Assembly: GCA_012520975.1 (NCBI GenBank)
Contig: JAAYNF010000116.1
Location: 1 to 42,081, forward strand
Direction of reading: 5' to 3'
Length of the DNA stretch: 42,081 bases
Source of the DNA: Clostridiaceae bacterium
Lineage (GTDB): Bacteria; Bacillota; Clostridia; Saccharofermentanales; UBA5734
Position numbers and translations under genes: made by a program. Of this stretch, positions 40,325 through 41,794 are shown in pieces. The notes below the pieces were generated by a model that ran no database searches, was not told the DNA's origin, and was given only the letters and a program-made list of their open reading frames with translations. How positions within the stretch are numbered: the stretch's first letter is position 1; each line of letters starts with the position of its first letter.

Positions 40325-41659
40325 CTATTTCAATACTTTCCATACCGGATTCTGTTTAGAGCCGACTCGCCTGATATAACCCTTCTCTACAAGAGAATTG
40401 AGTGCTCTTTGAACCGTTCTTACAGTTTTAGAAATCTTATCAGCTATTTCTTCTCTTGAAGAATCCGATTTTTGTTTTAAAATAGCATAAACCGCTTTCT
40501 CTGTTCCGTTCAAAGTGACATTCAAAGTGACATCTAAAATGTCACTTTGAATCTGTGGTCGGTATATTATAAATTTGAATCCATTATTCTTGTTTTCATA
40601 AGAATACTTGATTCCGGAATCTTTACATAGGCTATCTATTCTCTTGAAACCGCTACCAAATTGCTCTATATATTTGCTCAAGTACAGAATTTTCGAGATT
40701 GTTGCGTTTCTTATCTCAGATTCCACATTGCCTTTTATATATTCTTCCGGCTTATATCTACTGGCATAATCTCCGGGGCTATATATAGTTATCATACTCG
40801 GATGAATACATATCTCATGATTTGTCCTGCTTCCATACACTGCGTGAGCAAAGCTGTTTGCCAAAACCTCTCTTATCACTGCAGTCGGAATTTCAGGAAT
40901 CTCACTTCTTTCCGATTCAATAATTTCAACTTTCCATCGTATATTCTTAAATATGTAATCTTCTGCTTTCTTCAACAAATTATAAATATTGTCCTCATAT
41001 AATTTCATATCAAGAATTGTCAATTTTTCATCCGATGCAAATATACCGACTTTTAGAGAAACGGGTCTTGTATCACCAAAGAGAACCTCACCGGCATTTG
41101 TCAAATACTCATCTTTAACAAGACCGAACCTCTTTAAAATAATCGGCGTTGTATACCTGCCTTCGGGTAATCTTCCGGCACTTATTGCCTTTTGCCAAAA
41201 CGACTTTACTGAAAACTTATCAACTTGTTTTGATAAAGTGTCAGATTTGCCATTTTCCCATTTCGTACGGTATTTATTTGCTTCAAAAAAAGTCTTTAAT
41301 TCTTCGGGACTTACTTCTCTGTCTTCATCTGCGGTTCGCAAGTAGTATCTGCCCGCCGCGGAATATGGCTTGCTATCACCGCTGAATTCAACCTTTATCA
41401 ATTGTTTTCCATCTATCACAATTTCATCAATTGCAGGATATATCTGCGGTTTAATGCTTTCATAAACCGCTCTTGAAACATCTCTTAAAGATGATTCCGA
41501 CACATTCTGTCCAACAACATCACCATTAGGCTTGACCCCGAAATACAATGTGCCGATACCGTGCTTATTTAATATAGACGCTATGGAAATCATAGCAGCT
41601 TTTATCTCACTCGTCGATTTTTTAAATTCAAGAGTTTCAGTTTCTTTTCCGAGATTCAT
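40325..41659 (-). CDS. AlbA_2 (Schlafen-like) ATP-binding transcriptional regulator with C-terminal HTH
   Basis: N-terminal ETETLEFKKSTSE...GTLYFGVKPNGDVVGQ (AlbA_2); EIPTAVIREVLANSFAHAVY and EQFGSGFKRI (HATPase_c_4-type); C-terminal SREEIADKISKTVRTVQRALNSLVEKGYIRRVG HTH. RBS GGAAAGAGGTGG before the ATG at 41659. Confidence 0.9.
   Translation of the reverse strand: MNLGKETETLEFKKSTSEIKAAMISIASILNKHGIGTLYFGVKPNGDVVGQNVSESSLRDVSRAVYESIKPQIYPAIDEIVIDGKQLIKVEFSGDSKPYSAAGRYYLRTADEDREVSPEELKTFFEANKYRTKWENGKSDTLSKQVDKFSVKSFWQKAISAGRLPEGRYTTPIILKRFGLVKDEYLTNAGEVLFGDTRPVSLKVGIFASDEKLTILDMKLYEDNIYNLLKKAEDYIFKNIRWKVEIIESERSEIPEIPTAVIREVLANSFAHAVYGSRTNHEICIHPSMITIYSPGDYASRYKPEEYIKGNVESEIRNATISKILYLSKYIEQFGSGFKRIDSLCKDSGIKYSYENKNNGFKFIIYRPQIQSDILDVTLNVTLNGTEKAVYAILKQKSDSSREEIADKISKTVRTVQRALNSLVEKGYIRRVGSKQNPVWKVLK
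40509..40552. repeat. Intragenic operator-like palindrome plus 12-bp direct repeat in the AlbA_2 gene linker
   Basis: TTCAAAGTGACA x2 (40509-40520, 40521-40532); perfect 14-bp inverted repeat ATTCAAAGTGACAT (40520-40533) / ATGTCACTTTGAAT (40539-40552), spacer CTAAA. Confidence 0.9.
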
Positions 41660-41677
41660 TATCTTACCACCTCTTTC

Positions 41678-41688
41678 CAAAGTGACAT
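41678..41688. promoter_or_regulatory. Operator-like element CAAAGTGACAT near the predicted transcription start
   Basis: 11/11 identical to the intragenic repeat cores at 40511-40521 and 40523-40533. Confidence 0.65.
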
Positions 41689-41689
41689 T

Positions 41690-41718
41690 ATTGTACCACG
41701 AAGTGACACTTATGTCAC
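41690..41718 (-). promoter_or_regulatory. Predicted promoter of the AlbA_2 gene
   Basis: Minus strand GTGACA (41718-41713), 17-bp spacer, TACAAT (41695-41690). Confidence 0.6.
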
Positions 41719-41720
41719 TT
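41701..41720. promoter_or_regulatory. Inverted-repeat operator candidate AAGTGACA-CTTA-TGTCACTT
   Basis: Perfect 8-bp arms overlapping the predicted -35 and spacer. Confidence 0.7.
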
Positions 41721-41747
41721 AGAATTATTTAGTCGAATGCTGTCTGA

Positions 41748-41786
41748 AATCGGTGCCATAATCGGTGTCACTTTATGGCACCGATT
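41748..41786. promoter_or_regulatory. 14-bp perfect inverted repeat upstream of the AlbA_2 promoter
   Basis: AATCGGTGCCATAA (41748-41761) / TTATGGCACCGATT (41773-41786). The spacer region carries another TGTCACTT (41766-41773). Confidence 0.8.
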
Positions 41787-41794
41787 ACAAAGTA

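Follow-up and report, generated by a model that had tools for sequence, protein, structure and literature searches.

Operator-like half-sites shared by the promoter and the interdomain linker codons of a solitary bacterial Schlafen-type gene

A gene encoding a protein of bacterial Schlafen architecture, located in the window (the whole analyzed stretch of 42,081 nucleotides from a Clostridiaceae bacterium), displayed the same operator-like motif at its own promoter and within the codons of the linker in front of the C-terminal winged helix-turn-helix domain (wHTH). The linker copies were constrained at the DNA level and changed together with the promoter and the wHTH, and the arrangement recurred with unrelated motifs in relatives. 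The motif copies probably serve as wHTH operators for autorepression, with the intragenic array blocking or looping transcription.

Encoded protein and motif copies

The window protein had an N-terminal SLFN_AlbA_2 domain, a histidine-kinase-like ATPase, and a C-terminal winged HTH (Table 1), which are features of bacterial Schlafens. In the AlphaFold model, the wHTH was composed of three helices plus a wing (recognition helix: residues 413-425, VRTVQRAL; wing: about residues 429-442; as assigned from Pfam and AlphaFold), and the lowest confidence in the protein (pLDDT <50) was found immediately N-terminal of the wHTH at residues 371-381, namely those encoded by the intragenic motif copies. 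By fold, the whole protein was most similar to DIP2311 from Corynebacterium diphtheriae (PDB 3LMM; E=7.9e-16), a structural-genomics entry that, to our knowledge, has neither an assigned function nor a known DNA site or linker repeat. PADLOC gave only weak hits. The same genome harbored a second SLFN_AlbA_2/HATPase_c_4 gene (L001, at G000:C121), which contained no linker repeats and had other promoter repeats (GAAAAAATATTCATTGCATTT twice).

Table 1. Features of the gene and its promoter region (coordinates refer to the window; motifs of the intragenic half-sites are given in gene orientation)
Feature	Coordinates	Strand	Description
Coding sequence, 444 aa	40325..41659	-	SLFN_AlbA_2 / HATPase_c_4 / linker / winged HTH; ORF plus Pfam; bacterial Schlafen architecture
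SLFN_AlbA_2 domain, residues 6-116	41312..41644	-	Pfam PF04326, E=8.4e-19, 68.7 bits (cut-off 25.3)
HATPase_c_4 domain, residues 283-363	40571..40813	-	Pfam PF13749, E=8.2e-10, 39 bits (cut-off 26)
Linker codons 371-384 (QSDILDVTLNVTLN), intragenic operator array (putative)	40508..40549	-	Lowest synonymous diversity in the gene; low-confidence AlphaFold segment
Intragenic half-site 1, AAGTGACA	40540..40547	-	AGT at S372 in 43/43 orthologues; GAC at D373 in 45/46
Intragenic half-site 2, TGTCACTT	40525..40532	-	V377 codon GTC in 43/43 orthologues
Intragenic half-site 3, TGTCACTT	40513..40520	-	V381 codon GTC in 45/45 orthologues
Winged HTH, residues 385-442 (Pfam match 382-435)	40334..40507	-	Pfam HTH_36 plus HTH_24; AlphaFold
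Promoter half-site 1, AAGTGACA	41713..41720	-	Coincides with -35 hexamer GTGACA (41713-41718); in nearly all orthologues
Promoter half-site 2, TGTCACTT	41701..41708	-	Within -35/-10 spacer
-10 hexamer TACAAT	41690..41695	-	Part of the sigma-70-like promoter, 17 bp from the -35 hexamer
Promoter half-site 3, TGTCACTT	41680..41687	-	Just downstream of -10
Outlying AAGTGACA copy	41766..41773	-	Beyond DNA common to most orthologues

The initial annotation had listed seven AAGTGACA/TGTCACTT 8-mers within 1.3 kb, and every copy was recovered at its position (Table 1), as was the extended form CAAAGTGACAT (41678-41688, 40511-40521, and 40523-40533). This copy number was indeed far from random: 0/100 dinucleotide-preserving shuffles of the window reached seven (mean 0.83, largest 4). 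The intragenic copies fell, as had been described, in codons of the linker between HATPase_c_4 and wHTH, a disordered segment, where they encode QSDILDVTLNVTLNGTE. Four copies had been ascribed to the promoter side; three of them formed the promoter operator, while the outlying one was not shared by most orthologues and is probably unrelated to the operator. The three promoter half-sites lay on a sigma-70-like promoter (GTGACA, 17 bp, TACAAT). In gene orientation, the promoter and the linker each contained one AAGTGACA followed by two TGTCACTT, and the linker array was located about 1.15 kb downstream of the promoter array. Across the 1.99-Mb assembly, AGTGACA-N2..10-TGTCACT was found only at this promoter and in this linker.

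Synonymous-site constraint in the linker

A genome scan identified 59 related loci, mostly with 68-96% identity (many from metagenome-assembled genomes with uncertain host names, and with start codons chosen by rule), and the sequence comparison was applied to 46 full-length orthologues, most of which had 68-96% identity to the protein of the window. In these 46 orthologues, no other stretch of the gene came close to the linker motif in synonymous conservation: synonymous diversity was 0.155 in the 13-codon window at the linker, with the lowest value elsewhere being 0.398 (mean 0.537, sd 0.068). Linker Val was encoded by GTC in 89/90 cases (19% elsewhere), linker Thr by ACT in 88/93 (23% elsewhere), and linker Ser by AGT in 56/68 (13% elsewhere). 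Half-site hexamers were dense in the promoter (32/kb) and the linker (27/kb) and rare in the remaining coding sequence (0.3/kb), and 36 of the 46 orthologues had at least two of them in linker and promoter alike. An AT-rich Mollicute relative with 44% identity retained TGTCAC in promoter and linker, and used GTC for 4/4 linker Val codons versus 4/34 elsewhere in that gene. The proposal of an operator-like motif matched between promoter and linker at the DNA level was upheld by this constraint on synonymous sites (0.155 versus at least 0.398), and the match is not a protein-level accident.

It is accordingly hard to credit, and extremely improbable in our judgment, that the linker is a low-complexity peptide repeat (VTxN-like) kept by protein selection and matching the promoter by coincidence. 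Slippage of 12-bp tandem repeats yields in-frame 4-aa repeats, and most repeat-linker clusters had no promoter match (see below), but this explanation is contradicted already by the synonymous codon constraint, and further by the joint switching of promoter and linker, the several unrelated motif families that match their own promoters (both see below), and a palindrome unique to two places in the genome.

An element acting as RNA was also considered: an inverted repeat would fold the mRNA into a hairpin that is bound by the protein or governs mRNA stability or translation. The linker mRNA of the window (40500-40560) folded into a 15-bp hairpin (z = -4.3), which arises because the half-sites are inverted, and SLFN_AlbA_2 domains are RNA-linked. 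Against this, the third linker half-site, dispensable for the hairpin, was equally conserved; the promoter copies included the -35 box and the spacer, both untranscribed; and other motif families were direct repeats only, with no significant fold in the two families tested (z = -0.2 and -1.3), so that the hairpin was rejected as a general explanation. An RNA element thus has a low probability.

Co-variation of the motif with the promoter and the wHTH

In a fully supported clade composed of L165, L177, L180, and L183, CAAAGTGAC/GTCACTTTG was replaced by ATAAGTGAC/GTCACTTAT at the linker half-sites: all linker half-sites in both orientations, plus most promoter half-sites, had switched from CACTTTG to CACTTAT. 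The linker codons CAA AGT GAC ... GTC ACT TTG ... GTC ACT TTG were replaced by ATA AGT GAC ... GTC ACT TAT ... GTC ACT TAT, and the promoters displayed TATAAGTGACA...TGTCACTTAT at most half-sites. Because both half-site orientations changed together, the Q-to-I and L-to-Y substitutions in the linker were sensible only as by-products of a change in the DNA motif. Seven positions of the wHTH region were fixed in this clade for a residue uncommon elsewhere, and five of the seven were located in the wing (434 and 436-439), with changes including S434A, Q436K, and P438S. The switch was a single evolutionary event, and it is therefore suggestive rather than a statistic. The promoter and linker arrays were not absolutely coupled, since L184 kept the promoter sites and lost the linker sites, and L175 displayed the reverse, with the promoter form lost.

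The linker motif was also correlated with the recognition helix in about eight lineages, some of them related to one another: (i) linkers with TGTCGG (L035, L073, L078, and L109/L356) were always accompanied by the helix TIER, i.e., E, and (ii) linkers with TGTCAC (window, L006, L202, L237, L017, L131, and L020) by Q or K at the same helix position. L020 and L035, 85% identical to each other, had K and E, respectively, at that position and differed in the whole array (VTQN, TGTCACCC in L020; VGQN, TGTCGGTC in L035), and the linker motif was absent from the own promoter of both; this pair supports the view that linker DNA would be read by the protein's own wHTH even without a promoter site. Co-evolution of the repeat with the HTH, which the initial annotation had raised as a possibility, was borne out insofar as the motif changed together with the promoter (CACTTAT clade) and with wHTH residues (helix Q/K versus E; wing).

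The co-variation also bears on operator copying, in which recombination or slippage would pass repeats between promoter and linker; the intragenic copies would then have no regulatory role, and the likeness would reflect recent homogenization. The promoter and linker of L186 had 32 identical nucleotides (TGTCACTTCGGATGTCACTTTGAATGTCACTT), including three tandem units, suggesting that arrays can be copied between promoter and linker, and tandem arrays of variable copy number existed. Nevertheless, copying without a regulatory role is unlikely: endless conversion would be needed for single half-sites synonymously conserved down to about 70% identity and across unlinked insertions, half-sites of opposite orientation changed together, and flanking codons were not homogenized. 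In the Selenomonas loci L185/L186, tandem copies were present in the promoter also.

Recurrence with unrelated motifs

The survey covered 213 homologues in 61 clusters at 50% identity, 22 of which had tandem linker repeats. Operators common to the own promoter and the own linker, and unrelated to one another, were AAAGCGCAA, TGTCGGTTTGAAT, AAATGATTCGATAAATGAT, and GACCAAATAAA. The following linkers were each matched in the own promoter: (i) KAQN, spelled AAAGCGCAAAAT, in L028, L046, L068, and L069; (ii) VGLN, spelled GTCGGTTTGAAT, in L109 and L356; (iii) SIND, spelled TCGATAAATGAT, in L351 and L359 (match of 19 nt); and (iv) DQIND, spelled GACCAAATAAA, in L332 and L334. A weaker match of own promoter and own linker was found for TTGGGAATAAAA (L211), and TGTCAC was common to promoter and linker in the window group, L006, L202, and a Mycoplasmopsis plasmid. 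That relatives with quite different operators shared the arrangement points to built-in self-regulation.

When own promoters were ranked against those of other clusters, 4/61 clusters reached a rank of 0.01 or below (0.6 expected), and all four were repeat-linker clusters. The window cluster fell short of this threshold at 0.018; the most likely reason is that the same motif occurs in L006-type promoters, which were treated as "other". The broader expectation that linker repeats of homologues match their own promoters was confirmed in at least five unrelated motif families, but it did not hold as a general rule, with no own-promoter match in about 16 of the 22 repeat-linker clusters. No motif was found in the wider flanks (up to 1.5 kb) of the non-matching repeat-linker genes, and a search for the L020 motif elsewhere in its genome (two mismatches at most) gave nothing but two AT-rich chance-like hits. 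In L020/L035 and L017/L131, the DNA common to relatives ended at the ribosome-binding site, and thus there was no conserved promoter. The codon-preserving linker shuffle suggested by the initial annotation gave p<0.01 in 17/138 genes but, by median, in 1/49 clusters only; since the operator is already specified by the amino acid sequence, the test has little power here, and promoter swaps and orthologue synonymous diversity were therefore used instead. Six homologues without linker repeats (L013, L014, L015, L016, L026, and L030) had clear repeated promoter motifs (TGCAACGA, AACGCAAA, ATCAAACGCA, and others), apparently additional operators within this family.

Mobility of the operator-gene unit

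Most pairs of orthologues with 85-97% nucleotide identity (window 40325-41720; L148-L201) shared only the operator-promoter and the coding sequence; for example, L174/L176, L180/L183, and L185/L186 had unrelated flanks and no conservation of neighbors. The shared DNA in most pairs reached about 60-75 bp upstream, to a point immediately beyond the first half-site, and 0-40 bp past the stop codon, and in other families it was likewise confined to the single gene. Since the shared DNA ended at both gene borders, the sequence comparisons indicate that the operator and this one gene travel together from genome to genome as a unit, which was unexpected. No conserved neighbors were found around the window orthologues, which were solitary and had no defense-locus linkage, a feature frequent but not defining in bacterial Schlafens.

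These limits could be taken to mean that the half-sites serve mobility, with the protein of a one-gene mobile unit binding near both of its ends, at the promoter on the left and, on the right, at the linker, which lies about 200 bp from the stop codon, as the shared DNA ended so close to the gene between unrelated neighbors. Such a role is very improbable: the right end was not conserved, target-site duplications were inconsistent (own 4.7 versus swapped 4.4 +/- 0.3), Pfam detected no transposase domain in the window protein, and families without linker repeats moved likewise. Over all loci, neither direct nor inverted end repeats of transposable-element type were consistent, nor were target-site duplications.

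A few loci had short direct repeats on both sides of the shared unit (L177: GAGCATTTATA, 11 bp; L173/L176: ATAATATTT), and an unexplained 17-nt inverted repeat (TGAAATCGGTGCCATAA / TTATGGCACCGATTACA) was located just upstream of the shared unit at 41745-41789 of the window. L237 and L238 from Mycoplasmopsis arginini plasmids (44% identity) adjoined type I restriction genes (hsdS fragments, recombinase, and hsdR), and the gene was annotated in three pieces in the L238 plasmid; a Mycoplasmopsis relative was located between type I restriction-modification genes, and two plasmid hits from the Aliarcobacter/Arcobacter group also touched hsdR.

Proposed mechanism and implications

From the sequence features we infer protein binding, autorepression, and a roadblock or loop, with tight control of a defense-type effector as the purpose. 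The protein on the three promoter half-sites (-35 box, spacer, and start region) would exclude RNA polymerase, while on the linker array it would most probably act as a roadblock, halting polymerase during elongation before it reaches the wHTH codons, and a loop of about 1.15 kb from the linker array to the promoter array would possibly aid autorepression. Because the linker need only be flexible, the operator would be free to dictate its peptide, and the linker peptide would change whenever the wHTH specificity changes. The bacterial Schlafen family has reported anti-phage roles, and tight self-control would therefore be expected.

More speculatively, and with rather less than even likelihood, the array in the coding linker may constitute a portable, promoter-independent operator, by which a mobile one-gene defense-type effector would be self-limited behind any promoter it lands at. 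Families of the VTQN/VGQN type, which lack a conserved promoter, would then perhaps have no cognate site in the genome other than the linker array, and the linker peptide across the whole family would record the DNA specificity of the wHTH.

The DNA site that a protein would recognize apparently determines the amino acid sequence of one of its own segments, and this is repeated with unrelated motifs in one family. Operator/repressor co-evolution would thus be directly readable from single genes, DNA specificities could be predicted for many uncharacterized bacterial Schlafens, and the arrangement suggests how solitary, mobile, potentially toxic effectors control themselves.

Comparison with known systems

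The literature searched on intragenic operators, Schlafens, and this domain family provided precedents, and a description of the present arrangement was not found in it. Operators within coding sequences are known from lac O2 (in lacZ) and gal OI (in galE), which act together with a promoter operator; they are located in target genes rather than in the regulator's own gene, and they form no coding repeats.

Bacterial Schlafens, composed of a Schlafen RNase, a minimal histidine-kinase-like ATPase, and a wHTH, are described as widespread with BREX-type defense systems and as having anti-phage roles (PMC12839542). The domain order given there is the same as that of the window protein, while those Schlafens are linked to defense loci and the window orthologues were solitary; an operator or linker-repeat arrangement was not found in the available part of that source. 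TrlG of the Photorhabdus temperature restriction locus is likewise an Alba_2 plus HATPase_c_4 protein, differing in that only those two domains are shown, and no operator analysis of TrlG was found in the available part of its source (PMC7554251).

The lacI/O3 pair is a further precedent: in Escherichia coli, LacI at lac O3 roadblocks lacI, giving a truncated, SsrA-tagged product, and operator looping helps, so that the repressor limits its own gene via an operator located distally in that gene's transcription unit, at its end (PMC3711431). The window gene likewise had operator-like intragenic sites under DNA-level constraint, and the same motif was placed where a bound protein would block its own promoter. 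Unlike lac O3, the array of the window gene was part of the regulator's coding sequence, between two of its domains, and had a matching promoter array; moreover, it shaped the linker peptide and recurred with unrelated motifs across the family.
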